Assembly (NCBI GenBank): GCA_009787355.1
Contig: WRGD01000137.1
Location: forward strand, 1-32,543
Length of the DNA: 32,543 bases
Reading direction: 5' to 3'
DNA from: Defluviitaleaceae bacterium
GTDB taxonomy: Bacteria; Bacillota; Clostridia; Lachnospirales; UBA5962
Position 1 is the stretch's first letter. Each line of letters opens with the position of its first letter. Shown here piece after piece: positions 5,626-27,448 of this stretch. The position numbers and the translations under genes are program-made. The notes under the pieces are model-generated. The model saw only the letters and a list, made by a program, of their open reading frames with translations, had not been told where the DNA came from and made no database searches.

Positions 5626-6018
5626 ATGTCTAAAGCAACCACAATTAGAATAGATGAAGAATTGAGAGCAAGTATAGAACCAAAATTCGAAAAATTAGGT
5701 CTTAACCTTACAACATATGTAAATATGGCATTAAAAGCTTTTGATAGAGAAAATGGTATTCCATTTGACGTTTTTTTAATAAGTGAAGAAAATTCAGATT
5801 ACCATGCTAAATTACTGCATTCAATAGAACAAGCAAAAAGAGGAGAAATAATTACGACGATAAATAAAAAAACACCCCCACAAGCAGCGCTTGCAGGGGT
5901 TATTTTTTTGTTTAAAAATTTCTTAAACTTCTGGTGTTTCCATATTACCGTCTTCAAAATCTGGAGTTATAATTATTTCTATTTCCAGCTCTTCGTAAAT
6001 TTCATTTTCAGAATCTAA
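5626..6018 (+). CDS. RelB/DinJ-type antitoxin, orphan and 3'-truncated
   Basis: Residues 1 to about 79 match a RelB/DinJ antitoxin. The ribbon-helix-helix start is TTIRIDEELRASIEPKFEKLG, then LNLTTYVNMALKAFDRENGIPFDV, ending at SIEQAKRGEIITTI. Such proteins neutralise RelE/YafQ mRNA interferases and repress their own operon. The normal C-terminal toxin-binding tail and the toxin gene are absent. The frame instead runs through the terminator of the convergent giant gene and 96 bases into that gene's antisense strand, giving a hydrophobic tail unlike any antitoxin. A transcript ending at the hairpin near 5900 would have no stop codon. Promoter and ribosome site are excellent, so the 5' half is intact and only the 3' end was replaced. 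Confidence 0.75.
   Translation: MSKATTIRIDEELRASIEPKFEKLGLNLTTYVNMALKAFDRENGIPFDVFLISEENSDYHAKLLHSIEQAKRGEIITTINKKTPPQAALAGVIFLFKNFLNFWCFHITVFKIWSYNYFYFQLFVNFIFRI
5866..5905 (-). terminator. Terminator of the giant surface-protein gene (minus strand)
   Basis: On the minus strand ACCCCTGCAAGC (5900-5889) pairs with GCTTGTGGGGGT (5885-5874) over 12 positions, two of them G-U, around a 3-base loop. TTTTTTT follows. It starts about 22 bases after the stop at 5923. The plus strand also has a T run after the hairpin (5902-5909), so it probably terminates convergent transcription too, although two positions become A-C mismatches there. Confidence 0.8.
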
Positions 6019-9000
6019 TTCGTTTAAATCATCTTCCAAACCGTTTAATAAATCTAGAAGTTCTGGTGTAATAGTAACATGTATAAGTTCTTGCAAAGAT
6101 GTTCCACGTAGCTGTACTGTAACAATTACTGTTATAGGCTCATCTACATCTGTCATTGCTGTTACCATTCCTGCAAAAACAGAAAGTGAAGAATCGCTAC
6201 TAAACCAATCAAATTCATGATTATCGATTAAAACCTCGCCAAATTGGTCGAGTACAGAAACGCTAATAAAGGAGCTCGAACCTGCTTCTAAAGATATAAA
6301 GTTAGTGCTTACAGAAAGTTTTGTTGCTATTCTTTCTATAGCTTGCTCTATTTCTTGTTCTAGTTCTTCTAAGTCTTCTATTTCGATAATTTCTTCGATA
6401 ACTTCATCGTCTTCGTCATCTAGCTCTTCGTCTTCCAAAGTATCTTCATTTCCAGAACCTAAATCTGGTAAAACTGGAGATACAACTTCTGGCTCTGGGC
6501 TAGTAGGCAACCCTGGTTCTGGTAATTCTGGAGCTACAACTTCTAAATCTGGATTAGTTGGTAACTCTGGCAATATAGGAGCAGGTGCTGGGATTGTCTC
6601 TTCTGGTGCTATTGGTAGTATTGGTGCACTTATAATATTTATAGCAGCTGTTATTGTTATAGGTACAGTAGCTGTTACTGTAGTAGCATTAGCCCCAGTC
6701 CCAACTGTTACAGTCGCTATTAAATCAAATGTTTGACCAACTAAATTATCAGCTGCAAACATTAAACCAGAAAATACAATAAGCCCTTCATTATTACTAG
6801 AACTAAATATGATATTGTGGTTTCCAGGTAACGGTATACCAAACTGGTCTAATACTGTTCCTGAAACAAGTCTCATTTCTCCAAAAGGAAGATTAGTTGA
6901 ACCACCTGTATCTACAGTTATTGTAGTTGCACGCCTTGGTGGGTCTGTAATAAGAATATCTCTCTCTACAAAGTTTGCAGGGTCATTACTTACTGTTGCT
7001 CTAACTCTAATAGTTGTATTGATTAATGATATATCTGTACTATTAAAGTTTAAAAGTCCACTAGATGGGTCAATTGTTATACCTGTTGGTACTGTAGATG
7101 GTGAAGATATACTCCATACAACTGTTGGTGCTCCTGCACCTGTTACTAGTGTATTAAATCTATCTCTTATCTCTGCATTTAAAGTAACACTATGACCCAA
7201 ATGAAGCGAAGTAAGGTTAGCTGGAGATGTTATAGCAATAGTAAGCCTGTTCATAACAGCTATTGTAACTGGTGTACTAGCTGTTCTTGCTGCTATTTGA
7301 GCTGCGTCTAACCCTTGTGGTGCATTGTCTAATGTAGCAACTACATTAAATCTATTTCCTTCTAAATCTTCGTCATCTATTACTGTTACAGTACCTGTTG
7401 AACTATTAATACCAACTCCTGTTATATTTCCATTAGGTGTAATATTGTTATTTATAGTCCATGTTATAGCTGCGTTTGCTACTGCATCGCCAAATCTATC
7501 ACGAGCTTCTGCTCTAAATGTATTTGGTGATTCATTATTTGGAGAGTTTATATCTACTTCATGGCGTACTGTTGTTTCACCAGTTACAGGTAAAATTGCT
7601 ATAGTTATAGCTTCACGTACTGCTGGTATCACAGTTATTGTTATTGTATCTGTTACTGTTGTAGCAGTCACCCCTGTACCAAGTGTAATATATGCTTCCA
7701 CTGTTACAGTTCCTGCTGTTGCATTGTTCGGTACTGTTAATGTAGCTGTTGGTCCCGTTCCAGATATAGTTGCACCTGTATTATTAGTACCTGTAATTCT
7801 CCATCTTATAACACTGTTTGCACTTGCTGGTATACGTAAATCTCCAAATTGGTCAAGTGCACCTGCTGTTAAAGTAACACTCGATAATACTTCCGTATTA
7901 AGCGTTCTTGGAGATAATGGCAATGTAATTGCAAAGTCTGTTGTTACTGGTACTCTACCAGTTACATTTGTTACAGCACTTCTTATTGCTACATGCTCTG
8001 TTACAAGTGTTGGAGCCGGTATTGTTATTACAACGCTGTTGCTAGCCGTTATATCTGTTTGCCCTGTAGCTGTATTTGCTGGTATTGTTGCTGTTGCCAC
8101 TACATTGAATGTACCTAATGGAGTAGTTGCTGGAACAGTTACAAAACCTGGGTTTGTTACTGGAGCCACTGTAGCTGTGTTAGTTACTGTAACTCCTTGA
8201 CCAGAAGTACCATTTGTTATACTCCATGTTACTGGGTGGCTATCACCAAAACGGTCTACTGCTGTTACTGTAAACTGGTGGCTTCTAGTTTGTTCTATTC
8301 TGTTTTGTGTTGGTAAAGAACCTATTGTTACAGTTAATTCGTTTGGTCTTACCGTTGGTGCTACTACTGGTACTAAAATAATTGTTTGTACATATTCATT
8401 TTGGTTTGGATATGGACGCATTATTCTTTGTGGGTTCGGACCAGTTGTATATGCTATACCACGTACTGCTATTGTAGAACCTACACCTACATGTCTGTTT
8501 GTAGTAAGTATTCCCGTTATAGGGTCTATAGATACTATACCTACTCTACCATCGCTTGTATCGGAAGCTGGTCTACTACTTTGTCGTATATCGTGTTGCT
8601 GATAAGTTTCAAATATATCCCAACGCACTTGCGTATTTGGTACTACTGCATGTGGCAACGAAGCATCTAGCCTATTGTGAACAACCGCTGTAAAGCGAGT
8701 TATACTATCTAGTGGCTGTATTGTTGGTATTACTTGTGGTGTTAATGTTAACCCTGCTGGACCAGTCAAATGTATTCTAGTTGCTGGTAATGGAGTCGGG
8801 TCTATTGTTATCGTAACAAAAGCATTTGTTACATTGGCTTGTGGTACTTCTGCATTTACTCTAAATGTACTACTTGGTGGTACATGCTCGTTTACTGTTA
8901 CTGTTACAACATTTGTTTGGTTATTTATTGTAGCTGTTCTTGATGCTTGAGGATTATTTGCACCTGTTATATTACTTACAGTAACAGTTGGCTGTGTACT

Positions 9001-12000
9001 TCCTGTATATGGTCTACCTAACCTATCTGTCATTGTAACATTAAACAATGCTGTACTATCTATTTCCATTATATTGCTTGGCGGTGTTGCAGCCGAAGCT
9101 ATAGCTATAGAATGTAATACATCCGATGGTGTTGCATTTACTACTAAAGTTACTTCTGTAAATAATCCATAAGGTAATGCTTGTGTTACTGTACCTGCAA
9201 CTGTTGCACGAACAACTATTGTTCCACCAGTTACTGCAAGTGTTGCTCTATTTTGTGCATTGTTTGGTATATTTACAGTACCATTACTATTTACAGTTAT
9301 ACCATAAGTACCTGTTGGAGTAATGTTTTGTATTGTCCAATTTATCGTTGGATTTGTTGCTGGTTGATTTTGCAATGGTAAAGGTCTATTAAACCTATCT
9401 CTTACGTCTGTTGTTAGATTCCTATCTATTGCAACTTCCATTGGATTTGGCTGACCTGCATTTGCATGAGGTGCTACAAATAAATGTCCTGTAACAGTTA
9501 TACTGTATGGGCTTGGGTCTGCTGGGTTTATTGTAACAACAGATGAACCACTTATTGCATTTGGTCCAGTTGCTGGACTTGCTGTTATACCTGGGCTAGC
9601 AGCTATACTTGCCGTTGCTGTTACATTAAATGGATTACCATTGTTAAATGCATTGTTTGCTGGTTGATTTGGTATTACTAAGTTTGTAGTAAGACCTGTA
9701 GCTGTTCTTGTAGTTATATTTGCATTTGTTATAGGGTTTGGAACTGGTGTTACAAATCCTATTCCTGTTGGTGCTGTTGTACTCCAATCTATAATAAGAC
9801 CTGGTACATTGTTCATACTAGAACCGAATTGGTCGTAAACAATTGCTGTAAACTCTCTGCTACTCATTATATCCATAGGTACACTTGTAGCTGGATATGT
9901 TGGCATTGGGCTTACCCTAACTGCGGATATAGTTCTGTCTGCCTCTCTTACTGTTATTGTTAAAAGTACACTATCTATTCTTGCTGGTATATAAGGTGCA
10001 TGAGATGCTTGAGTTCCACCTGCTGGTACAAATGCACGTACCACTATTGTACTATTTGCTCCTACATGACGGTTTACTGTTAGTACACCTGTGTCAGAGT
10101 CTATACTTACTGCTGCTGCATTACCTGTATCCCATGTTGGTCTTGTATGACCTGCTTGAACTGGTGTTCTATCTGTAAAGTTTAGATTTGGTGTTCCAAC
10201 TATTTCCCAACGTATTGGCAAGTTTAGATTTAATCCAGGGTTTGCGTTCATGTTACGGTTTATCTGGTCAAAAATTGTTGCGTTTAACGTTGTTTGTGTC
10301 ATTGGGTCTACAGTAAGTGCTGTTATAGCTGGGTTTGGAGGAGTAGCCGGTTGTGTTACTGTTGTTCCTGCTCCTGTTATTGCTACAGTTGTTGCTATTG
10401 GGTTTGGTATTGTTGGTGTAATATTTACTTGGTTAGTAATATTACCAGTTGTTATATTCCCTGGAGCCGAATTTGCTGGAGCCGTAGCTGGTGTACTTGC
10501 TACAAGTACAATTCTTGGCTGTGGCGGACCTGCAAGAGTCTGGTCGTTTGGAAGTGTAATAACTGTGCTATTACCTGTAGTAGTGCTTAAAGTTACACCA
10601 TTTGGTGTAGTACCTTGTATAGACCATGTTATAGGTGATGTACCTGTGTATTCTCTACCTAGTCTATCTACTATTGTTGCCACAAATGTTTCATTTGTGT
10701 ATATATTCATAGAATGGTCTAATGCTGTAGTTGGTAATGTTACTGGGAAGCTCAAAGCTGGAGTTTGACCCTGTCTTCTTACTACTATACTGTGTGGAAA
10801 ACTTAAAGCATCTATTACAGTTAAGCCTGTACTGTCTGATACAATACCACCTGTAGGAGCTGTTTGTACCCCTTGTGCATTTAATACTGGTCTTCCTGTT
10901 TGCCCAGTTACTGGTACTACCGATACAGATACTGTATAACCACCTATTCTATTTGCCTCTGCAGGTATTACTATTGTATTAGTGCTTGCCCCTGCTGCTG
11001 TAATGGCAGTTGTTGTTGCTGTGTTAAACGCTAAATTTACTCCAGTAGGTCTTGTTACATTCCATGTAAATGTGTGCGGAGCTGTTATTGGATGTCCAAA
11101 TCTATCTGTAACCGTTGCAGTATATTCTATACTTGTTCCTATTTCTCTTGTTGCATTAACAGGAGTTAGAACTACTGTATGAGCATTACGATTTGGAGGT
11201 ATTATTGTAACTGTTGCTGTTGCTGTGTGTGTTGTATTCGCACCAGTTGCATCTGTACCTGATACTGTCGCTGTTACATTAAAGTTGCCTGTAAGAGTTA
11301 GGTTGTTTGGTATTGTTAATACATTTGTGTTTACTGGTGCATTTGTATGCGTACCAACTGTTGCAGTACCTGCTGTACCCGTAGTGCTTGCAAGCGTACC
11401 ATATGTTGCACTAGATACTGTCCATGCCCAATCACTACCTGGAACTGGTGCCACTGGTAAACCAAACTGGTCGAATGCTGTTACAGTAAAGCTGTGTGTT
11501 GTATAAACTTCTGTAGATAAAGTACTTGGAGTTATTGTAACAGTTCTTGGACTTCTGTCTGGTTCTATTACCGTTACTTGTACTCTATCATATATAGCAG
11601 GGTTGCTAGTTACTGCTACTCTAACCCAGAAAGTTGTTCCAACTGGTACATAACGATTTACTGTTACAACACCTGTGTTAGATATTGTTATAGCTCTTTG
11701 TCCACCCGGTACTATTGGTGCTGTACTGCTCCAGTTTATACCTTCGATAGTCCATGTAAGTGCTGGTCTTGGGTTTAATGTTGTGTTCATTGGTCTACCC
11801 AAAATTTCAAACACTATTGCATCAAAATCACCTGTACCTGCTACCGGTATTTGAGATATTACTGGTTGATTTTGAACTGGGTTTGAACCCGGCACTGTAG
11901 CTGGGTTTATTATTTCCACTGTATGTGGTACCCAAGGTAAATCTTCTATAGTAATAGCTGATGTAACAGTTGCATTGTATGTTTCAGTTCTTACATAAGT

Positions 12001-15000
12001 TGGATTAGTTGTACCATTTGTTGCAGTAGCACTTGTATTAGCTGCTAAACTATTGTTTGCTCTTGCTCTAAGTGTAAAAGTACCACCTATAAGTGCTGGA
12101 TTACCCGGTATTGTTACCGTACCACCTGAATACGTTATACCGTGATTTGCTATACTTTGTAGCCCATTTGCTAAACTTTCAATAGTCCAAGTAATAGGTC
12201 CTGTATAATTTCTACCTAGCCTATCTGTTGCTACAAGTGTAAATACTTGGTTTGCAGATATTCTAATATTTGCAGTAGTTGGAGTAAGTGTAAAATTATG
12301 CGGAGTTCTTGGTATATCTATTATTCTTACTGCTACTTCTGCTGGAGTTATTGCATTGTTACCTTGTACTGCCGCTCTAACTGTAAATGTCCCACCTATT
12401 AAGTTTGCATTTGCTGGTATAGTTACGGTTCCTGCATTTATTGTTACACCTGCTGCACCACCTGCTGGTATAGACCATGTTACGCCTGCATTTGGTATCA
12501 CACGACCTAGCCTATCTAATACTCTAGCAGTAAATACATTTGATGTTCCATGTGGTATTACTTCTATTTCTGTTACACTATTTACTAGTTCTATGCTATG
12601 AGGCGTTGGAGGTGCATCTATTACCGTAACAGTTGCTGTAGCTGATACATCGTAAGCTACCGTTCCACTTGGAGGGTCAATAGGGTTTGGTACCGTTCCG
12701 CTAACGCTTGCACGAACACCAAAAACTGTACCTACTGGAACATATCTATCTACCGTAACAACACCATTAGCAACAGTAACACCTGCTATTGTTATAGGGT
12801 TTCCTGAAGCATCTACTATAGTCCATGTTATATCTGCCGCTGGACGTGTAACAGCTTGCCCAAAACGGTCTGCCATAGCTATTGTAAAAGTATGATTGCT
12901 TTCTATTTCCATGTTTCGAGTTGTTGGAGATATTGTCATACTTACAGGTGGTCTTGCTGGAGCTACTATTTGCACTATTACATAATCGTAATGTATAGTT
13001 GGCGAAATAAGTGTGTTGTTTTGTATTTCTGCTGGTGTTGGTTCTCTCCAGTTAAACATTGAAGGTATATCTCTTACCCAAGCTGCACTGGATATAGGAG
13101 TTAAAAGTCTACCATTATGAACAACAAAACTACCAAGCGAAACAGCTGAATTTGGATTGGCATTACTTACATCTACTACATTCGACAAGTTAATGCTCGG
13201 TATTCCATCTACTTCTACTCTTACTCTAAAAGTAGAACCTGCAGCTGCATTTGCCAAAATAGTTAAAACTTCATTTGAAGTTAATACTCTGTTAGGACTA
13301 GAACTAACAGATACACCACCTACCGTAACAGGGTTTCCCGTTGCTTCATCTCTTATAGACCATCTATATACTGCAGCTACTTCAGTTCCACCTACTGGCA
13401 TATCGTAAGCTTGTGCTTCTATATTAGCAGTTCTTAACGGCTCAATTAAATACGTAGTAGTACCTGGATTTATACCTACATGAGTGTTTGCCAAGAAATG
13501 CGTTCTATCTATTTCTACACGTTGTGGCAATCTCTCCCAGTGTATGTCTATCCAGTTTCCTGCATTTGCACGTGTAAAACGAAGTTCTGGATTAATGTCT
13601 ACCAATCCAGTCAATGCTCCCGCACCACCACGATTATTTCCACTTAGTAAAAAGCTACGTACACCGTTACCATGGTTATGTCCACCATTTACTATAGAAT
13701 CTGTACCTTGGTATCTACCGTAGGACGCTCCAGGAACTGGAGGGTTTACTGTTACTTGTTGTCCCTGTGGAGTTCTTGTTGTAAACCTTGAAACTGTTGT
13801 AAAACCAGTATTTCCTAGGGTATGGTTTTCTACGTGGATGTTTGGAAAATTACCATTAGCAACCGTAACAGGTATTGTCATTATGTCGTGATTATTAAAT
13901 GGGTGTAAAATTTGGTTGGCTGTTCCCGACTCTGTAAGAATCTGTGGCCATATACCACCATTTGCAGGTACTGGAGGTTGACCTGGTACACGGATATAAC
14001 TACCCAAATGGTTACCTATTAAAGCTCCTCTATCACCAACATCCCAAAACAATTGGTCGTTTACAAGTGTACCTGCTCTAGTTGCAGTTGCAGTATTATC
14101 TCTTAATATAACATCTGAACCAATAAAAACACGGTCTCTTAATACATTAAGAAAGTTGGTTCTTATTGTATTCTCAGTACCACCTGTTTGGTTTGTATTT
14201 GGTACTGTCATATTATTATCTGGGATAATACCTATACCACCACCAAAACCATTTGTTCCTCTAGCTTCGTTGTTAGATATTATACCACCATTTATTCTTA
14301 CAGTAGCATTACTATTTAGTGCTATACCACCACCACGACCTGCAACATTGTTTGTAATACTACCACCGTTCATTATAAATGTTGCAACAGTATTTGCAGC
14401 TGTTCCAGAACCTAGTACGGCAATAGCACCACCAACACGTGGTCCATTATTCCAAGCATTATTGCCAGCTGGAATTACTATTGGTTGTGTAGAATTTAGA
14501 GCATTCATTATAGCATTTGCTCCAGTATGATTATTCCCGTCATGGTTCATTACTACGTTGCCTGTTATACTACCATCGTTTAGTATAAAAGTACCACCAG
14601 CATTTATTCTAACACCACCACCAGCAATACCAGAACCAGTACCATGAGAAAAAGCATCTATAGCTGCATTTTCTCGTATAGTACCACCATTCATTGTTAC
14701 AGTAGAACCACTACCAACAAAGATACCACCAGTGTTAGATCTACCAAAAGAACCATCGCCTGAAGGATGCGAAGCCACATTGTGTTCTATTACTACATTT
14801 CCAGAAATATTTAGCGTTCCGCCTTCTAATGATATACCACCACCACGAGCAGAAATATTTCTAGCGATGCGAGCATTCCCACTTAGGTTTGCAGTAGCAT
14901 TGTGTATAAATAAACCACCTCCACCTGTTCCGTTTCCTGCATCTGTTCCTATAGCACCATTCCATCTAGGTACATGACCCGGTCTTGCATTTCGCTCTAT

Positions 15001-16935
15001 AGAACCATCAGTCATGTTAAATATTGCATTATTTATAACAGCTACACCACCTCCACCTTGATGCTCTGTATTATCTCCACCTGCATTATTTACATTGTTG
15101 TAAATGGTACCACCGTGCATATGAAAATTAGTGTTAGCACCAGCTACAAGTACTCCCATACCTGCACCTGCATGACCACCACCTACACCGTCGAAGTTAC
15201 CGCCGTTTCGACCTGCTCTATGATTTCGTATTATTCCATCGTGCATTGTAAAAGTAGCACCATTGTCTACTCGTACACCACCTCCACCGACATTACTACC
15301 TGTGTTTACATGATTACTTTCTATTATTCCACTAGTCATGGTAAATGTGGAGCCTGCTCCTCTTACAAGCACACCACCACCACCATTGTTGTTTGCATTG
15401 TTGGTTACTCTATTTCCTGCTATTGTTCCACCTGACATAGAAAATGTAGCACCGTTTATAACGGCTACACCACCACCAGAATGTGCAGAAGCATTTGTGT
15501 CTGCAGTTGCAAGGCTTGTAAATCCACTCCATGTTGGCGTTGGAGAACCTATACGACCACCGCTCATATTGAAAAAGGAGTTTTGACCTGCTACATGTAC
15601 ACCACCTGCACGTGCAGTTGCAGCTGCTATTGTATTAACGTTATTTTGTATAGTACCACCGTGCATATTAAACGTTCCGTTTTGTACATCTACTCCTGTT
15701 TGGCTACCACTTATTGTTCCTGTTACAAGATTTACTGTACTACCATTTAATATATTTACACCACGGTTACCATTATTATTAATAGTACCACCGTGCATAT
15801 TAAACGTTCCGTTTTGTACATCTACTCCTGTTTCAGTTCCATTTGATATGGTACCAGCAAGCATATTAAACGTTCCGTTTTGTACATCTACTCCACGTAT
15901 AGCAGTGTTTATAGTACCGCCCTGCATTTGGAAAGTACCACCGTTTTGAATTTGTACACCACGTTGAGTTCTAGTTGCATTTGTATTAGCAGCACCTATA
16001 GTAACATTTGGACCCATTACAAGTGTTGCATTTGAACCTGTTACTGTAAATACAGCTGCATTTGCTGCATTACTTAGCAGTTGATTATTTCCTGTACCTC
16101 TACCACTTACATATACTAGTTCTGTTACTTGCATACCATTCCCTGTACCAAGAGCGTTCGAGTTACTATTTACAACAATATGAATATCGCTAAAAATTCT
16201 GTTTAAATTCCAAGCTAAAGCTCCAGAAACAAGTGCTGTATTAAGGTGAATAGTAATAGGTATATTACTTAATTGATTTCTTAATTCATTTCTAACAACA
16301 TCTTGTTGAGTTCCAGGACCCGGAAAAACGCCACCATTAGCTGAAGTTGTTACATTGTTAAATGGATAGCTATTGTAAGGAGAATTTGCTGGAAAATTAC
16401 TACTTCCAATAACAAAATCGAAACCATTTCCAGTAACTTGCCCATTAAACAAGAAACGTTGAAGTCTGGCAGTAGTAGTAGCTCCATTTACGTTTGCATC
16501 TTGTATAACATAGTGAAACCTACCACCATACCAACCACTAACTGTACGAGTTGGTCCTATATCTGGAATTGTTATAGGAGTGCTAGTCGGTGCTATAGGC
16601 ACAGACGTTGTTACTACAGAAGTTGAAGTTGGCATTATAGGAGTTGACATTGGGGCAATTCCAATACCTTGCTGTGTATAACCACCTTCTTCATTGGTTA
16701 TACTACTACTATCATCATTCGATGAAATATCGTAGTCTTCAAAGTCGTATACAGAATTAGAATCTTCGTCTATACCTTGTATATCGCTTTGTATATAAAT
16801 ATTATTGTTGTTTTGCTCTGCTGCAAAAACAGTAATATCTATACTGCTTGCTACCATAATAATAACAAGTAGCATGCTTATAAATCTTGAAAATTTAGAT
16901 GTGTGACTCTTTTTAGAGTTTTTATAGTGCGTCAT
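5923..16935 (-). CDS. Giant secreted beta-helix / Ig-like repeat surface protein (3,670 aa)
   Basis: A signal peptide (1-39, hydrophobic core FISMLLVIIMVASSIDITVF, cleavage after FAA) is followed by an acidic Ser/Asn stretch and a Pro/Thr/Ser linker (about 90-130). Residues about 300-945 form a right-handed beta-helix of Gly/Asn-rich rungs (GG.I..N, NGTFNM), locally with a clean 22-residue period. From about 1,330 to 3,430 come 17 Ig-like (BIG2-like) repeats, each with a DRFG/DRLG/DQFG-type signature, W(T/S)I, and often VPVGTTF.VRA. A Pro-rich linker (about 3,435-3,492), a strongly acidic helix (to about 3,530), an 18th repeat and an acidic tail end the protein. No LPXTG, S-layer-homology, choline-binding or transmembrane anchor is visible. 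AAGGGAG lies 8 bases before ATG. Adhesin or surface-fibre function is likely by architecture; the ligand is unknown. Codon use looks more G+C-rich than neighbouring genes. Confidence 0.92.
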   Translation of the reverse strand: MTHYKNSKKSHTSKFSRFISMLLVIIMVASSIDITVFAAEQNNNNIYIQSDIQGIDEDSNSVYDFEDYDISSNDDSSSITNEEGGYTQQGIGIAPMSTPIMPTSTSVVTTSVPIAPTSTPITIPDIGPTRTVSGWYGGRFHYVIQDANVNGATTTARLQRFLFNGQVTGNGFDFVIGSSNFPANSPYNSYPFNNVTTSANGGVFPGPGTQQDVVRNELRNQLSNIPITIHLNTALVSGALAWNLNRIFSDIHIVVNSNSNALGTGNGMQVTELVYVSGRGTGNNQLLSNAANAAVFTVTGSNATLVMGPNVTIGAANTNATRTQRGVQIQNGGTFQMQGGTINTAIRGVDVQNGTFNMLAGTISNGTETGVDVQNGTFNMHGGTINNNGNRGVNILNGSTVNLVTGTISGSQTGVDVQNGTFNMHGGTIQNNVNTIAAATARAGGVHVAGQNSFFNMSGGRIGSPTPTWSGFTSLATADTNASAHSGGGVAVINGATFSMSGGTIAGNRVTNNANNNGGGGVLVRGAGSTFTMTSGIIESNHVNTGSNVGGGGVRVDNGATFTMHDGIIRNHRAGRNGGNFDGVGGGHAGAGMGVLVAGANTNFHMHGGTIYNNVNNAGGDNTEHQGGGGVAVINNAIFNMTDGSIERNARPGHVPRWNGAIGTDAGNGTGGGGLFIHNATANLSGNARIARNISARGGGISLEGGTLNISGNVVIEHNVASHPSGDGSFGRSNTGGIFVGSGSTVTMNGGTIRENAAIDAFSHGTGSGIAGGGVRINAGGTFILNDGSITGNVVMNHDGNNHTGANAIMNALNSTQPIVIPAGNNAWNNGPRVGGAIAVLGSGTAANTVATFIMNGGSITNNVAGRGGGIALNSNATVRINGGIISNNEARGTNGFGGGIGIIPDNNMTVPNTNQTGGTENTIRTNFLNVLRDRVFIGSDVILRDNTATATRAGTLVNDQLFWDVGDRGALIGNHLGSYIRVPGQPPVPANGGIWPQILTESGTANQILHPFNNHDIMTIPVTVANGNFPNIHVENHTLGNTGFTTVSRFTTRTPQGQQVTVNPPVPGASYGRYQGTDSIVNGGHNHGNGVRSFLLSGNNRGGAGALTGLVDINPELRFTRANAGNWIDIHWERLPQRVEIDRTHFLANTHVGINPGTTTYLIEPLRTANIEAQAYDMPVGGTEVAAVYRWSIRDEATGNPVTVGGVSVSSSPNRVLTSNEVLTILANAAAGSTFRVRVEVDGIPSINLSNVVDVSNANPNSAVSLGSFVVHNGRLLTPISSAAWVRDIPSMFNWREPTPAEIQNNTLISPTIHYDYVIVQIVAPARPPVSMTISPTTRNMEIESNHTFTIAMADRFGQAVTRPAADITWTIVDASGNPITIAGVTVANGVVTVDRYVPVGTVFGVRASVSGTVPNPIDPPSGTVAYDVSATATVTVIDAPPTPHSIELVNSVTEIEVIPHGTSNVFTARVLDRLGRVIPNAGVTWSIPAGGAAGVTINAGTVTIPANANLIGGTFTVRAAVQGNNAITPAEVAVRIIDIPRTPHNFTLTPTTANIRISANQVFTLVATDRLGRNYTGPITWTIESLANGLQSIANHGITYSGGTVTIPGNPALIGGTFTLRARANNSLAANTSATATNGTTNPTYVRTETYNATVTSAITIEDLPWVPHTVEIINPATVPGSNPVQNQPVISQIPVAGTGDFDAIVFEILGRPMNTTLNPRPALTWTIEGINWSSTAPIVPGGQRAITISNTGVVTVNRYVPVGTTFWVRVAVTSNPAIYDRVQVTVIEPDRSPRTVTITPSTLSTEVYTTHSFTVTAFDQFGLPVAPVPGSDWAWTVSSATYGTLASTTGTAGTATVGTHTNAPVNTNVLTIPNNLTLTGNFNVTATVSGTDATGANTTHTATATVTIIPPNRNAHTVVLTPVNATREIGTSIEYTATVTDRFGHPITAPHTFTWNVTRPTGVNLAFNTATTTAITAAGASTNTIVIPAEANRIGGYTVSVSVVPVTGQTGRPVLNAQGVQTAPTGGIVSDSTGLTVIDALSFPHSIVVRRQGQTPALSFPVTLPTTALDHSMNIYTNETFVATIVDRLGREYTGTSPITWSIQGTTPNGVTLSTTTGNSTVITLPNDQTLAGPPQPRIVLVASTPATAPANSAPGNITTGNITNQVNITPTIPNPIATTVAITGAGTTVTQPATPPNPAITALTVDPMTQTTLNATIFDQINRNMNANPGLNLNLPIRWEIVGTPNLNFTDRTPVQAGHTRPTWDTGNAAAVSIDSDTGVLTVNRHVGANSTIVVRAFVPAGGTQASHAPYIPARIDSVLLTITVREADRTISAVRVSPMPTYPATSVPMDIMSSREFTAIVYDQFGSSMNNVPGLIIDWSTTAPTGIGFVTPVPNPITNANITTRTATGLTTNLVIPNQPANNAFNNGNPFNVTATASIAASPGITASPATGPNAISGSSVVTINPADPSPYSITVTGHLFVAPHANAGQPNPMEVAIDRNLTTDVRDRFNRPLPLQNQPATNPTINWTIQNITPTGTYGITVNSNGTVNIPNNAQNRATLAVTGGTIVVRATVAGTVTQALPYGLFTEVTLVVNATPSDVLHSIAIASAATPPSNIMEIDSTALFNVTMTDRLGRPYTGSTQPTVTVSNITGANNPQASRTATINNQTNVVTVTVNEHVPPSSTFRVNAEVPQANVTNAFVTITIDPTPLPATRIHLTGPAGLTLTPQVIPTIQPLDSITRFTAVVHNRLDASLPHAVVPNTQVRWDIFETYQQHDIRQSSRPASDTSDGRVGIVSIDPITGILTTNRHVGVGSTIAVRGIAYTTGPNPQRIMRPYPNQNEYVQTIILVPVVAPTVRPNELTVTIGSLPTQNRIEQTRSHQFTVTAVDRFGDSHPVTWSITNGTSGQGVTVTNTATVAPVTNPGFVTVPATTPLGTFNVVATATIPANTATGQTDITASNSVVITIPAPTLVTEHVAIRSAVTNVTGRVPVTTDFAITLPLSPRTLNTEVLSSVTLTAGALDQFGDLRIPASANSVIRWRITGTNNTGATISGTGPTATLTVPNNATAGTVTVEAYITLGTGVTATTVTDTITITVIPAVREAITIAILPVTGETTVRHEVDINSPNNESPNTFRAEARDRFGDAVANAAITWTINNNITPNGNITGVGINSSTGTVTVIDDEDLEGNRFNVVATLDNAPQGLDAAQIAARTASTPVTIAVMNRLTIAITSPANLTSLHLGHSVTLNAEIRDRFNTLVTGAGAPTVVWSISSPSTVPTGITIDPSSGLLNFNSTDISLINTTIRVRATVSNDPANFVERDILITDPPRRATTITVDTGGSTNLPFGEMRLVSGTVLDQFGIPLPGNHNIIFSSSNNEGLIVFSGLMFAADNLVGQTFDLIATVTVGTGANATTVTATVPITITAAINIISAPILPIAPEETIPAPAPILPELPTNPDLEVVAPELPEPGLPTSPEPEVVSPVLPDLGSGNEDTLEDEELDDEDDEVIEEIIEIEDLEELEQEIEQAIERIATKLSVSTNFISLEAGSSSFISVSVLDQFGEVLIDNHEFDWFSSDSSLSVFAGMVTAMTDVDEPITVIVTVQLRGTSLQELIHVTITPELLDLLNGLEDDLNELDSENEIYEELEIEIIITPDFEDGNMETPEV
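6160..12960 (-). repeat. Tandem Ig-like repeat array inside the giant gene (about 18 units)
   Basis: The marker motif D[RQ][FL]G or close variants recurs near 12860, 12500, 12220, 11795, 11465, 11095, 10660, 10260, 9830, 9395, 9010, 8690, 8255, 7845, 7495, 7155, 6840 and 6240. Units are therefore about 95-145 residues apart. Three copies are degenerate at the motif: EILGR, DQINR and NRLDA. The units are divergent at DNA level, which argues for an old array rather than recent copying. Confidence 0.85.
14090..16050 (-). repeat. Beta-helix coil region of the giant protein
   Basis: About 30 short Gly/Asn/Thr-rich coils follow the pattern GGG(V/I).(V/I)..GATF.M.GG.I..N. Regular coils of 22 residues are seen near 15660-15900; elsewhere loops of varying size interrupt them. 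This pattern is typical of right-handed parallel beta-helices in pectate-lyase-like and polymorphic adhesin proteins. No pectate lyase catalytic motif was recognised. Confidence 0.8.
15663..15894 (-). repeat. Three identical 34-bp blocks in 66-bp register
   Basis: The same 34 bases occur at 15663-15696, 15795-15828 and 15861-15894, at offsets of 132 and 66 bases. They encode the rung core GVDVQNGTFNM. The rung between the first two is divergent. Identity at DNA level within a diverged coil array points to recent duplication or gene conversion of single 22-codon rungs. Confidence 0.85.
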
Positions 16936-17019
16936 CTTTACACTCCCTTCTTTCTAGGTATATATTATTACTTTTATATTGTATAACATTTTTATAATTT
17001 TGTACATTGTGTTTCTTGC

Positions 17020-17059
17020 ACATCTAAGAAAATTTTTTATTTAAAATTCTCTTAGATGT
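17020..17059. other. Hairpin between vapD and the giant gene
   Basis: ACATCTAAGA (17020-17029) pairs with TCTTAGATGT (17050-17059), with AATTTT/AAAATT continuing inside after one mismatch. It lies just downstream of the minus-strand vapD stop at 17068, where a terminator would be expected, but the T-rich tract is on the plus-strand side (17061 onward). It may still attenuate transcription between vapD and the giant gene, whose ATG is 85 bases further on. No convincing promoter for the giant gene was found in 16951-17019. Confidence 0.45.
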
Positions 17060-17067
17060 CTTATTTT

Positions 17068-17364
17068 TTACTTTGTTTTTTTCTTTTTTACATTCTGTGT
17101 AAAATCTGACCAATCTTCTACTTTGAAAGCTCTTATATCACGAACACTATCTACAAACCAATCTATTTCTTTTAGCCTATCTATAGCTTCGAATACAGAA
17201 ACCATAGTATTATTATTGCTACGGTTTATATAAAGGCTACCCTGTGTCCATTCAAAGCCAAACTCTAGCATTTCACGTTTTATTTCATCGTAGGCACCAT
17301 TATATGGCTCTCCATAAGATTTTTTTAGGTCATCTATTTTTAAGTCGAATGCTATTGCGTACAT
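17068..17364 (-). CDS. vapD: VapD family ribonuclease (virulence-associated protein D)
   Basis: This 98-residue protein has a close VapD pattern: N-terminal [18 protein letters not shown], then [26 protein letters not shown], and C-terminal [21 protein letters not shown]. VapD proteins share the ferredoxin-like fold of Cas2 and act as small RNases, in Haemophilus paired with the antitoxin VapX. The Asp in IAFDL is the expected metal-site residue. The length is the usual family size, and the tail is Lys-rich. AAAAGAGG lies about 5 bases before ATG. No VapX-like partner is visible; instead a BrnT remnant ends 16 bases upstream on the same strand, suggesting a former mixed toxin cluster. Confidence 0.87.
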
Positions 17365-17380
17365 TTAAACCTCTTTTAAA

Positions 17381-17539
17381 TTAATCATGGTTTCTAAACT
17401 TTTCAGCCCAGTCTGCAAGACAGCTTCTCATTATTTTTTCATATAGAACAATTTCTTGTTTAGTTGCTTTTCTAGCAGAAATTATTCTTGTTATATTATC
17501 TCCATTACGGTAACAAAAACATACAATAATTTCAAACCT
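17381..17539 (-). pseudogene. BrnT toxin C-terminal remnant
   Basis: Directly after the flagellin TAG (17542-17540), the same frame continues for 52 codons to a TAA at 17383-17381. It contains ITRIISARKATKQEIVLYEK, the conserved C-terminal signature of BrnT ribonuclease toxins (DUF497), preceded by FEIIVCFCYRNGDN, which fits the last core strands. The N-terminal half, any start codon and the BrnA antitoxin are missing. The break coincides exactly with the flagellin stop codon, so the flagellin 3' end appears to have been joined into a brnT gene. Non-functional by itself unless made as a read-through fusion. Confidence 0.75.
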
Positions 17540-20488
17540 CTACATATCCCAAAGCAAATCTACAACATTATCACTACTAGTATTGCCTTGCAAAAACATA
17601 AGCATAGCCGATTGGCCTAAAACCTCTAGCCTAACATTCTGCATAGCTTTTTCTGCCATATCTGAATGTCTAAGCCTAGATTCCGAAGAAGTTTGTTCCA
17701 TACTAGCACGTATAACCGAGGCTGCGGTATGCATAAGCCTATTTTCTTGTGCTCCTAGGTTTGCACGAGCTCTAGATACCAACGATTCGGCGTGGTCTAA
17801 CCTATTTAAAAAAGAAGACATTAAAATACCATCTCCATCACCCTCGTACAATACCGAACCTGTGGAAGGGTCTATTACTTCACCATATACAATAGCTCTG
17901 TTTAAATCTCTTACAAAATTATTTAAACCAAGAGAACCAAGCGTCATAGACTCAAGTGTCATATTGTGGCGTTGTCCACTATTGGCACCAGATTGTATTT
18001 GTAGTATAGTAGGACTTCGCATACCCTCCAGTGTATCCATATGGATAAAGTGGTTTTGTAATGCGTAATTAATAAAATCTCTTACAGCAAAGTATCCACC
18101 AGTAGTATTATTCGGTGGTCCAGTGTCGAAAAGGCTAGGTATGTTACCCAAAAATATATATTCTCCACTAGAACCGATAAACGGACCTGCATTTTGCCTA
18201 ATCCAATTTGTTACAGCTTCTGCGTTTATTCTTCCAGCATCTACTGGACCGTTTTGGGCACCTGTCATAGATGTAGGAGTATTTACCCAGTTTGATGCAC
18301 CACGAACATCGTGTATGGTAGGTCTTGGAACTCTTTCAAATACAAAAACGGCATTACCAGTTTGACCTGGATTGACTACTTGGGTGTTATTCGCAGTAAG
18401 TAATGAGTTGTTAAGCCAAGTTGTAACTTGTTGTACTGTTTGAAAACTTCCTTGTGGTGGCCACTGTATATTATTTAGATTCATTGTCCAATTTAAATTG
18501 TTTCCTGCACCATTTGCCCATCTATCGTTTAGCCAGTTTGTAACGTATTGTACATTACGGTTGTATATGTGTTCCTGTGCATTTCGTAGGTTTAGGTTTG
18601 GTGTACCAAGAGTACCCATTAAATCGGCATGGTTTGGATTAAAGTTAAATATGTTTTCAAAACTTGGAGCATTTGGCACATTTCCAGGTATCCAATTTTG
18701 CAAACCACCGCCTATAGGGTTTAGTAAAATACCTTGTGGACCACCTCCCGCAGGTGCAATTGGAGGTAATGGGGAATTCCAATTAAAAACCTGATTACTC
18801 AAAATGGAATTTATAGTACCTGGATTAGCGACACTCCACCCAGTTGGTAAATTGGCAGGGTCTACCCCAGAAAGCCAATTCATAAGCCCTTGTCTATTTA
18901 GATTAATAACTCTATTCGGATTATTCATCAAGTCTAAACCACTAGAAACAAATGTGCCATTATTCACCATATTTTGAAAGTTATTACCCGGGTTGTTAAG
19001 ACCTAACGAGTTTAATATAGCACCTCTGTCTGCCGGTGTAGCCCCCCCAAAAAGGTCTAAAAAAGCCTGGGAATTAAGAAAATTATCAAAATTGGTAGCA
19101 TTGAATTGCTGTGAATTAGCTAAACTTCCTATAACATCTCTAAAATTGCTACTTAAAGTAATACCAGAAGGCAAACTATTTGCAGCATTTTGAATCATAT
19201 TGGCAAGTTTTAATCTATTATAGTTATTAAACATGGTATTCGCATTCGTACCACCAGGGCCTGTCGGAATCGTCCAATCCATGGTATAATTGTTAAGCGA
19301 ACCCGTGTTTAAAGAATTAAGAACATCTTGGAAACCATTGTTAAGGTTAAACTCAAACAAACTTCTAAACGTAGCATTATTGTTGTTTAGAAAATTATTT
19401 ACAAGTGTAGGATTGTGCAAATCTTGATTATTTATTATATCTTGCCAATTTGACACCAATCCCCAACCTGTAGGCAATGTTTGAGCTCCAAGCCAACCTA
19501 TAACAGCAGCTCTATTTTGATTATTTGCTAAATCTATCTCCTCTTGCACTACATTCACAAGGTTTGGTATACTAACACTTACATCAACAAGAGCGTTACC
19601 TGGTCTAAAATTATCCCGTGGGCCAGATGCCCAAGTTCCATTATTTGGTGGTAAATTATTTATAAAAAAGTTTTCAAATGTAGAACCATTTATTATAGAA
19701 TTTACATGGTTGTAATTTTGAAGCATGGAATCCGGGATTGCATCTAAAATTGATTGCAAATCAGCAGAATTGTGCAATATCCAATACCCACCACCTGCTG
19801 CATCCATTGCACCCCTTTGGGAATTTAGCCAATTAAGTATTGCATCCCTATTACGCTGTGCTGCCATAGCTGGTGTAACATTGTAATTTTCTATACCCGT
19901 GATATTGTTTTGCACCCAAGCCATATCTATTGGTCTACCACCCGGCACCAAATGGTTTATAAGATTGGTAAGGTCTGTACCATCTGGTCCAGTGTAGCTA
20001 ATTTGCCCAGGTACTCCTGGTACAAAAGTACCCGGTACAAGTCCTGCCGCAATGGCATTCATATCCAGCTTACCCTCTAGTAAGTTTATTCCATTAAAAG
20101 TTGTTCTTTGTACTATTTCTGTAATAGCGCCTAATGCTTGTTCTATTTCTGTTGCAATAGTTTGCCTATCTGTAACTGTGTACACATCGTTTGCAATTTG
20201 TACATTTAATTCTCTTACCCGAGATATTACAGCAGATATTTCTTGCATAGCGCCTTCGGCTGTCTGAATTAAGCTAATGCCATCGTTTATGTTTCTAGTA
20301 GCTTGGTCCAAACCTCTTATTTGCTGCCTCATCCTTTCACTTACAGAAAGCCCAGCTGCGTCGTCGGCTGCACTATTTATTCGCATACCTGTACTCAGCT
20401 GGTTTCTGATATTATGTTGAGTTCTTTCTATACCTAGTATATTTCTATGAGTATTCATAGACATAAGATTAGTACGTATAGACTGCAT
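17540..20488 (-). CDS. fliC: Giant flagellin with repetitive central domain (982 aa)
   Basis: This is the filament subunit of the flagellum, secreted by the flagellar type III apparatus and so without a signal peptide. Residues 1-140 are a canonical D0/D1 N-terminus: IRTNLMSMNTHRNILG, GMRINSAADDAAGLSVSERM, then NINDGISLIQTAEGAMQEI. The last about 100 residues are the matching C-terminus (LGAQENRLMHTAASVIRASM through LGQSAMLMFLQGN). Between them lie about 740 residues, against under 200 in a typical clostridial flagellin, built from degenerate repeats of about 60-75 residues. No HExxH protease motif of flagellinolysins was found. AAAGGAGG lies 5 bases before ATG. I found no sigma-D type promoter. 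The gene is immediately followed in frame by a BrnT remnant. Confidence 0.93.
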   Translation of the reverse strand: MQSIRTNLMSMNTHRNILGIERTQHNIRNQLSTGMRINSAADDAAGLSVSERMRQQIRGLDQATRNINDGISLIQTAEGAMQEISAVISRVRELNVQIANDVYTVTDRQTIATEIEQALGAITEIVQRTTFNGINLLEGKLDMNAIAAGLVPGTFVPGVPGQISYTGPDGTDLTNLINHLVPGGRPIDMAWVQNNITGIENYNVTPAMAAQRNRDAILNWLNSQRGAMDAAGGGYWILHNSADLQSILDAIPDSMLQNYNHVNSIINGSTFENFFINNLPPNNGTWASGPRDNFRPGNALVDVSVSIPNLVNVVQEEIDLANNQNRAAVIGWLGAQTLPTGWGLVSNWQDIINNQDLHNPTLVNNFLNNNNATFRSLFEFNLNNGFQDVLNSLNTGSLNNYTMDWTIPTGPGGTNANTMFNNYNRLKLANMIQNAANSLPSGITLSSNFRDVIGSLANSQQFNATNFDNFLNSQAFLDLFGGATPADRGAILNSLGLNNPGNNFQNMVNNGTFVSSGLDLMNNPNRVINLNRQGLMNWLSGVDPANLPTGWSVANPGTINSILSNQVFNWNSPLPPIAPAGGGPQGILLNPIGGGLQNWIPGNVPNAPSFENIFNFNPNHADLMGTLGTPNLNLRNAQEHIYNRNVQYVTNWLNDRWANGAGNNLNWTMNLNNIQWPPQGSFQTVQQVTTWLNNSLLTANNTQVVNPGQTGNAVFVFERVPRPTIHDVRGASNWVNTPTSMTGAQNGPVDAGRINAEAVTNWIRQNAGPFIGSSGEYIFLGNIPSLFDTGPPNNTTGGYFAVRDFINYALQNHFIHMDTLEGMRSPTILQIQSGANSGQRHNMTLESMTLGSLGLNNFVRDLNRAIVYGEVIDPSTGSVLYEGDGDGILMSSFLNRLDHAESLVSRARANLGAQENRLMHTAASVIRASMEQTSSESRLRHSDMAEKAMQNVRLEVLGQSAMLMFLQGNTSSDNVVDLLWDM
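18395..19855 (-). repeat. Degenerate Asn/Leu-rich repeat array in the flagellin centre
   Basis: The unit begins NR.A(I/V)..WL (seen as NRDAILNWLN, NRAAVIGWLG, NRQGLMNWLS, NVQYVTNWLN). It continues through LP(T/S)G(W/I) and a 'DI/DVI' helix to a (V/D)NFLN..F..LF or SFENIFNFN element. At least five copies can be traced. They are protein-level repeats, diverged at the DNA level. Confidence 0.65.
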
Positions 20489-26362: not shown

Positions 26363-27448
26363 ATGAAAAAAATAATACTGACTATAATAATTTTAATAAT
26401 GTTCCCTTTTCCTCTTCTTGCAAATGTACCGAATCTTACATTAGAGGAGGCAACAAGACTTGCTATAAATAATAGTACACAAATAAGAAATTTGGAAAGT
26501 AATATAACCTTATCGAGAGAGGGACAGCAAAGAATAAGAGACTTAATGTGGACAAATCCACAAATACCAGCATCTGATTTTGTACGTATGCAAGCAGATA
26601 TGATGAGGCTGGATGCAAATCGTGCTGTTAGTCTTAGTAGTATTACTGCTCAAGAGCAAACTTTAGAGTTTATTATTTCTAACCATTTTGCAAATATAAT
26701 AATGGCACAAAACGAATTAGAAATTTTCGACAAAAACATAAGCCTAATACAAAGAGATTTAAATAATCTTAGAATAATGCAAAGCCTTGGTATGGCAAGT
26801 AATTCACAAATAGATAGTGTGGTTACAAGCCATAGACAAGCGTTAAACAATAGAGAAAATTTAATATCTTCTATCGATTCTGCATTTAGAGAATTAAATA
26901 GATTAATGGGTACAAATCAAAACAATGTGTATAATGTTATTTTCGAGCCTACATTTAATAATCTTAATGATATAAATTTAAACGAATTTATATCAAGACA
27001 TCAAAATAATAGTGTACAAATAGAAAATATAACAAATCAACTACGAATAGCAAGGTTCGAATTAGACAATCATAGATTAGATTTTACCCCAGCAAGTGGT
27101 ATGGTATCTCTTACAGAACCTACAAGAAGTGATAGAGAACTACAAGTTACACAAACAAATAGAGATTTACGAGAAGCAAGAGAACAAGTAGAAAATAATA
27201 TTACAGATTTATACAACCAAATAATCAACTTAGAACTTACTATAGAAGGTATGGAGCTACAATTAGCTATACTAAACCAAGAAATTAGAGTTTTAGAAGT
27301 ACAGTACGAAGTAGGACAAATAACAGCTATAGAGCTTGACAGAAAATTATTAGAAAAAGAAAATTTAACAGAAAATATAAGAAGACAAAAAACAAATCAT
27401 TATTTACTTTTGATGAGACTAAACAATCCAAATATTTTGGTAGGATAA
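26363..27448 (+). CDS. TolC-like outer-membrane-efflux family protein
   Basis: This 361-residue secreted protein has a signal peptide (residues 1-20, KKIILTIIILIMFPFPLLA, cleaved before NVP). LTLEEATRLAINNSTQIRN is the classic opening helix of TolC repeats. Long amphipathic coiled-coil helices follow (about 90-180 and 255-350), with a second half resembling the first: AREQVENNITDLYNQIINLE, then YEVGQITAIELDRK, which matches the TolC 'Y..G..s..e' signature. The beta-barrel-forming strands of true TolC are not obvious, and a monoderm has no outer membrane. Such proteins occur in clostridia with unclear function, perhaps as an envelope scaffold for efflux. AAGGAG lies 8 bases upstream. A MATE exporter sits later in the same run. 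Confidence 0.82.
   Translation: MKKIILTIIILIMFPFPLLANVPNLTLEEATRLAINNSTQIRNLESNITLSREGQQRIRDLMWTNPQIPASDFVRMQADMMRLDANRAVSLSSITAQEQTLEFIISNHFANIIMAQNELEIFDKNISLIQRDLNNLRIMQSLGMASNSQIDSVVTSHRQALNNRENLISSIDSAFRELNRLMGTNQNNVYNVIFEPTFNNLNDINLNEFISRHQNNSVQIENITNQLRIARFELDNHRLDFTPASGMVSLTEPTRSDRELQVTQTNRDLREAREQVENNITDLYNQIINLELTIEGMELQLAILNQEIRVLEVQYEVGQITAIELDRKLLEKENLTENIRRQKTNHYLLLMRLNNPNILVG

Follow-up and report, generated by a model that had tools for sequence, protein, structure and literature searches.

A giant, probably adhesive surface protein and the exclusion of lysine from the exposed proteins of a putatively alkaliphilic Defluviitaleaceae bacterium

The giant open reading frame and its neighbors

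The window, the whole 32,543-nucleotide stretch of contig WRGD01000137.1 that we analyzed, comes from a Defluviitaleaceae bacterium (genome G000) and carries one uninterrupted ATG open reading frame encoding 3,670 residues on its minus strand; we call the protein P0001. The plus-strand reading of the same interval was ruled out, as that frame is full of stops. The features to which the text refers are as follows.

5923–16935, minus strand: gene of P0001, a secreted protein with a predicted beta-helix and Ig-like repeats; one lysine (K3539) and no cysteine after the signal peptide
16819–16935, minus strand: signal peptide assigned by sequence, residues ~1–39; four of the five lysines of P0001, all in the n-region
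14056–16188, minus strand: predicted right-handed beta-helix, residues ~250–960, ~22 coils (AlphaFold2 model, VIA and strand count)
13147–13479, minus strand: extra divergent Ig-like unit, residues 1153–1263 (repeat-profile match, iE 1.2e-4)
6646–12969, minus strand: 17 tandem Ig-like (Big_1/Big_2-like) repeats, residues 1323–3430, with a D[RQ][FL]G marker
6349–6645, minus strand: linker, residues 3431–3529, Pro-rich then Asp/Glu-rich, with a 2 x 18-residue duplication
5998–6348, minus strand: last Ig-like repeat (the 18th by the earlier count), residues 3530–3646, holding K3539
5926–6078, minus strand: acidic C-terminal tail; 19 Asp/Glu and no Lys or Arg in the last 60 residues
17540–20488, minus strand: flagellin, 982 residues, 0.3% Lys; a surface protein outside Sec with the same lysine exclusion
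26363–27448, plus strand: exported TolC/OEP-like protein, 1.7% Lys, 7.8% Arg

The first-pass annotation had called the product a secreted protein of 3,670 residues, which stands, the strand now being given as minus. Its signal peptide is borne out by n-region lysines K5, K8, K9 and K14 and a hydrophobic core at residues ~18–36, with an end reading ...ITVFA/AEQ. A low-complexity stretch separates the signal peptide from the beta-helix, and the Pro-rich and acidic linker followed by one more repeat was found as annotated. The protein ends ...DFEDGNMETPEV and has a net charge of -94 at neutral pH. Toxin/antitoxin-like genes, both of normal lysine content, flank the gene: a 98-residue Cas2-fold (VapD-like) protein lies directly upstream (17068–17364), and a RelB-like frame on the opposite strand (5626–6018) overlaps its 3' end by ~95 bases.

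Predicted folds, relatives and probable role of P0001

The N-terminal region was modeled as a 1,191-residue segment by AlphaFold2 from five sequences (four of them homologues). Mean pLDDT was low (54.6), the flanks being poorly predicted, and regular short-strand rungs at pLDDT mostly 75–95 extended over residues ~325–960. The rungs form a right-handed parallel beta-helix, which VIA aligned with a phage Andhra tail protein (Z 23.2, 479 residues, 3.4 A), the Vag8 passenger (Z 22.4) and pertactin (Z 17.4), the alignments to tailspike, Vag8 and pertactin spanning 387–479 residues. Foldseek alone gave weak matches (best E 0.004), and a profile search of solved structures with the helix sequence gave no match. 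The helix repeat is of the type GG(V/I)xVxxxxxFxMxGGxI. Hence, the long beta-helix annotated earlier is supported as a fold (model, VIA Z 17–23), but its size was put too high, as strand counting on the model gave ~22 coils rather than ~30.

Eighteen repeat markers were located in the Ig-like array, 13 being exact matches to D[RQ][FL]G and five variants (EILG, DQIN, DRFN twice and NRLD). The annotated 17 plus one repeats thus agree in count with the 18 found, but five of the 18 markers deviate and one further unit, the divergent one at residues 1153–1263, had been overlooked; the repeat profile brings the total to 19. That profile, which was built from the same repeats, matches each of the 18 at iE 1e-19 to 1e-32, and their mean pairwise identity is 22%. 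The repeats thus seem to be old but coherent under a profile. The test for a four-repeat superperiod gave p 0.009, uncorrected for the six periods tried; the signal is weak and an exact four-repeat superstructure was dropped. Repeats R4, R8 and R12 (within 6646–12969, minus strand) are alike, hinting that the array grew by four-domain duplication.

Big_1 was the sole Pfam match to P0001, at 19.7 bits against a cut-off of 34.9 (the best Big_1 score anywhere in the genome is 31.1 bits), and Big_2 gave no match. A model of three repeats, built on an alignment from non-overlapping windows, had a first domain of pLDDT ~92 with the Ig-like beta-sandwich of Big_1/Big_2 domains. Its structural neighbors were the phi29 capsid insertion domain, LigA and the Bacillus Sap S-layer domains (Z 10–11), also SbsC, and a Paenibacillus Big_2 domain (Z 9.9); a profile search of solved structures with the Ig sequence gave marginal phi29 and SbsC matches. 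The Big_2 profile search that the annotation had proposed as a check was therefore negative, with Big_1 below cut-off, but the structure model favors an Ig fold, and the other proposed check, structure prediction, came out in support of both the beta-helix and the Ig folds.

A beta-helix followed by an Ig array had been thought unusual in order and size. This view was abandoned when homologues were sought. The genome itself encodes a 1,357-residue paralogue in which a helix is followed by five Ig units and an acidic tail, and the end of a third, partial paralogue precedes it on the same contig. A homologue in genome G004 (Mp193P1bin2, of the same family, from Microcerotermes P1) has the helix and no fewer than two clear Ig units up to the point where the contig breaks off. 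The same domain order is found in the adhesin-like proteins of methanogens, in which the most frequent architecture is an N-terminal beta-helix with Big-type repeats after it and lengths reach 4,691 residues (PMC11532034). Like P0001, these are giant proteins of gut anaerobes with an N-terminal right-handed beta-helix followed by many Big-type Ig domains that Pfam recognizes poorly, and P0001 has the N-terminal beta-helix and tandem Big-type domains by which they are defined. They differ in being archaeal and in nearly all carrying a membrane-anchoring helix, whereas P0001 is bacterial, lacks a recognized anchor, has an acidic C-terminal tail and contains almost no lysine. As paralogue, relatives and methanogen proteins share the domain order, the architecture of P0001 is of a known kind.

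Among the relatives, helix proteins have one of two kinds of C-terminus, a sortase-type signal or an acidic tail. Those at three loci (L024, L053 and L055, from P1 Defluviitaleaceae/Oscillospiraceae and G005) share with P0001 the helix repeat and the exclusion of lysine, but have MPQTG/LPATG/LPQTG-type C-termini, are probably sortase-anchored and lack a long Ig array. The genome encodes one sortase, but the C-terminus of P0001 lacks the LPXTG-type signal, which combines a hydrophobic segment with a basic tail. Nor was a membrane-anchoring helix found, the sole long hydrophobic segment being the signal peptide, and Pfam matched no SLH domain in P0001, though other proteins of the genome carry them. 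The P0001-type acidic tail is common to both paralogues and to a Labiotermes P1 helix protein. As this tail takes the place of the relatives' sortase signal, P0001 may be held non-covalently or released. The protein would be exported by Sec; its helix would make up a rigid head close to the N-terminus, and its Ig units a stalk. An Ig domain is ~4 nm long, and ~19 units would give a stalk of perhaps 70–80 nm.

The host is probably a monoderm, a spore-forming, flagellated clostridium of Defluviitaleaceae type. The annotated monoderm setting fits the lack of Omp85 in the genome, which also spoke against an outer membrane, a hypothesis raised by the TolC-like frame at 26363–27448. With Omp85 missing, that frame represents an efflux protein of outer-membrane type in what looks like a monoderm.

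Judged from its architecture, P0001 is most likely a passive adhesin, probably for glycans or for food particles, or a coat fibre of acidic character. That it serves mainly as an acidic coat, or as an S-layer-like component, conditioning the surface at high pH and binding no ligand, seems rather unlikely. The net charge, the acidic tails common to the paralogues and the likeness of the Ig domains to those of Sap and SbsC would agree with such a coat. However, no SLH domain was recognized, and the beta-helix head would be foreign to S-layers, as we know of none with a long head of this kind. A precedent exists in SlpA of the alkaliphilic Alkalihalobacillus pseudofirmus OF4, an acidic surface protein like P0001; SlpA is an S-layer protein, and the likeness is one of description rather than of sequence comparison (PMC8992544). 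We consider it still less probable that the helix is a polysaccharide lyase or hydrolase merely presented by the Ig array. Alginate lyases, pectate lyases and tailspike depolymerases are among its fold neighbors, but the non-enzymatic passengers of Vag8 and pertactin rank among the closest by Z, no enzyme profile of Pfam or NCBIfam matches P0001, and the GG(V/I)..FxMxGG repeat spans the helix with, by eye, no obvious catalytic coil.

Lysine in proteins that face the outside milieu

The folds of P0001 had been described correctly, but its most anomalous property, the lysine content, had been overlooked. Four of its five lysines lie in the signal peptide, which leaves only K3539, or one lysine per ~3,630 exported residues (log10 P ~ -160 at the lysine rate of the genome's cytosolic proteins). 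The genome has a GC content of 28.6% and its cytosolic frames average 9.8% Lys (n=140). Within 392 kb sampled from 21 of its contigs, exported frames had a median of 1.8% Lys (n=47), the exported class being assigned by a simple hydropathy rule, and many secreted proteins had 0–1%; SLH proteins had 0.0% and peptide-binding lipoproteins 0.3%. Some exported-class frames of higher lysine content are membrane proteins with cytoplasmic domains (FtsH, MrpE) or a CwlD-like enzyme. Three further tests were independent of the hydropathy rule.

Orthologues of the binding protein SBP_bac_5 were compared among seven genomes of one family (G000–G006). Lysine made up 0.28% in G000, 0.89% in G003, 0.35% in G004, 0.52% in G005 and 0.48% in G006, versus 8.3% in G001 and 5.9% in G002, which lack the effect. 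GC at these loci was 0.32–0.43 in the low-lysine genomes and 0.24 and 0.41 in the normal ones, and hence does not separate the groups. Another 14 SBP_bac_5 proteins from four named P1 metagenome-assembled genomes (MAGs), one of them from Oscillospiraceae, had 0–1.1% Lys, and among relatives of the Oscillospiraceae MAG the values are bimodal. The exclusion thus spans families.

Chemoreceptors allow the comparison to be made within one polypeptide. In G000 they contain 0.55% Lys before the second membrane helix and 8.3% after it, whereas ectodomains and cytoplasmic parts show no gap in G001 (11.5 and 8.7%) or G002 (6.1 and 6.8%). The Amidase_3 domains offer a comparison within one enzyme family: those of secreted surface enzymes mostly have 0–1.1% Lys (one in G005 has 2.8%), whereas CwlD-like amidases with a signal peptide keep their lysine (9.0, 10.1, 6.7 and 4.5%). 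CwlD works within the mother cell, in the spore under development; the best NCBIfam match of the G000 enzyme was spore_cwlD, at 185 bits and below the 221.6 cut-off. Flagellin, which is not exported by Sec, has only 0.3% Lys. Given these orthologue, chemoreceptor, amidase and flagellin results, the exclusion tracks exposure and not export, base composition or route, and it is cell-wide for what faces the outside milieu.

Two observations on individual genes may be added. An exported D-Ala-D-Ala carboxypeptidase (L036:8811–10001) with 9.3% Lys is an exception to the lysine rule and could be sporulation-specific. The flagellin at 17540–20488 is very large and carries a long central insert rich in Asn; a second, of 1,020 residues, lies at L031:1997–5059.

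An alkaline habitat and other candidate causes

Lysine was not the only residue to change. In log2 units the largest losses in exported orthologues were of Lys (-3.9), Cys (-2.0) and Tyr (-0.8), and Arg (+1.0) and His (+1.2) had risen. Lys, Cys and Tyr side chains titrate between ~pH 8 and 10.5. Tyr was hardly depleted in chemoreceptor ectodomains (5.0 vs 5.5%), and avoidance of Asn-Gly was not seen in P0001 (37 occurrences, 33 expected). As Arg fills just 12% of the aligned Lys cells of the SBP orthologues, the rest being taken by many other residues, lysine is avoided rather than exchanged with preservation of charge. Extracellular loss of Lys with gain of Arg and His is also found in an alkaline protease, M-protease (PMC8153356), in which the shift concerns a single enzyme and Asp/Glu decrease. 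Here, lysine is near zero across the exposed proteome and Asp plus Glu is little changed (~13% in low-lysine and ~14% in normal-lysine orthologues), so that this last part of the M-protease pattern is missing.

Alkalinity had been named as a candidate cause from composition before the origin of the relatives emerged. A scan of named genomes then gave six loci, all in MAGs with P1 sample codes, the ascertainment not being neutral as the query was itself lysine-poor. These codes denote hindgut compartment P1 of Labiotermes labralis, Embiratermes neotenicus and Microcerotermes parvus, which is highly alkaline and from which 79% of termite Defluviitaleaceae MAGs come (PMC7024585). The P1 pH is described as equal to the highest met in biological systems, L. 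labralis itself not having been measured (PMC10018900). All five named P1 MAGs have lysine-poor binding proteins and an Mrp antiporter subunit, and within the family the subunit is present in exactly the five low-lysine members and absent from G001 and G002. Overall it was found in 14 of 21 low-lysine and three of 19 normal genomes (p 0.0016 without phylogenetic correction), the association being imperfect outside the family. Alkaliphiles often have Mrp antiporters, which also occur in other organisms. A pair of Mrp antiporter E subunits lies at L034 (G000 contig C148; 4319–4810 and 12338–12838), suggesting two mrp operons. The Mrp antiporters and the P1 origin of named relatives are indirect signs that G000 may be an alkaliphile.

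Most likely, then, the lysine exclusion is an adaptation to the extremely alkaline P1 of higher termites. At such pH lysine would be largely deprotonated, losing its charge and becoming a reactive nucleophile, whereas arginine would stay charged. We give a probability of roughly 75% to the reading of P0001 as a giant secreted surface fibre, probably adhesive, of an alkaliphile that excludes lysine from all that faces the milieu. The wider proposition is about evenly poised: that P1 in practice allows no lysine outside the cell, that different bacterial lineages living there have stripped it from exposed segments along a boundary so sharp that it follows membrane topology and sporulation compartments, and that exposed lysine can serve as a genome-encoded pH meter and topology reader for organisms not in culture.

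A variant of the alkaline reading replaces charge by covalent chemistry: in alkaline gut fluid rich in humus and polyphenols, quinones or carbonyls would attack deprotonated amines, thiolates and phenolates, and every exposed lysine would be a liability. We regard this variant as possible but the less likely form. It would explain a near-total exclusion rather than a shift, the variety of replacing residues and the depletion of just those residues (Lys, Cys and Tyr) that turn nucleophilic at high pH, but His, also a nucleophile, rises. Polyphenols are abundant in termite diets, but oxidants were absent from the p1 of one litter-feeding termite (PMC6345907). Another reading has lysine avoided, whatever the pH, because host or neighbors produce a protease or cross-linking enzyme specific for lysine; the restriction of the effect to exposed segments would agree with it. 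This seems very improbable, as Cys and Tyr also fall and the trait occurs in Oscillospiraceae and several Defluviitaleaceae of different termite hosts, all from P1; trypsin avoidance specifically was ruled out by the rise of Arg, the other trypsin site. Evasion of ubiquitin was considered on the basis of composition. A last reading treats low lysine as a side effect of base composition, of codon supply, of horizontal transfer or of the chemistry of secretion. Only the GC of the P0001 gene speaks for it (34–41%, versus 24–32% for most surrounding DNA). It is already contradicted by the overlapping GC of SBP loci, by normal lysine within the same chemoreceptor chains and in exported CwlD-like amidases, and by a flagellin low in lysine without Sec, and we give it next to no weight.

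Single enzymes losing Lys and gaining Arg under alkaline adaptation are already known. In the limited open-access literature searched we found no report of proteome-wide lysine exclusion, nor of a near-complete, cell-wide removal of any one amino acid from exposed protein that switches along one chain. If this holds, lysine content would allow the external pH and the membrane topology of uncultured bacteria to be read from sequence alone and would bear on the concentration of Defluviitaleaceae in P1. It also raises the question of whether the lost charge or the nucleophilicity of lysine is intolerable at very high pH. P0001 itself is a natural large scaffold free of cysteine and, but for K3539, of lysine.

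Other giant proteins of this composition were seen. More lysine-poor beta-helix proteins of >2,000 residues occur in relatives (L054:9449–15730 and L023:2339–9046), and two adjacent giant exported proteins of 1,834 and 1,506 residues (L031:8698–14202 and 14324–18844), each with 0.2% Lys, resemble each other at their C-termini, which are possibly of dockerin or S-layer type.
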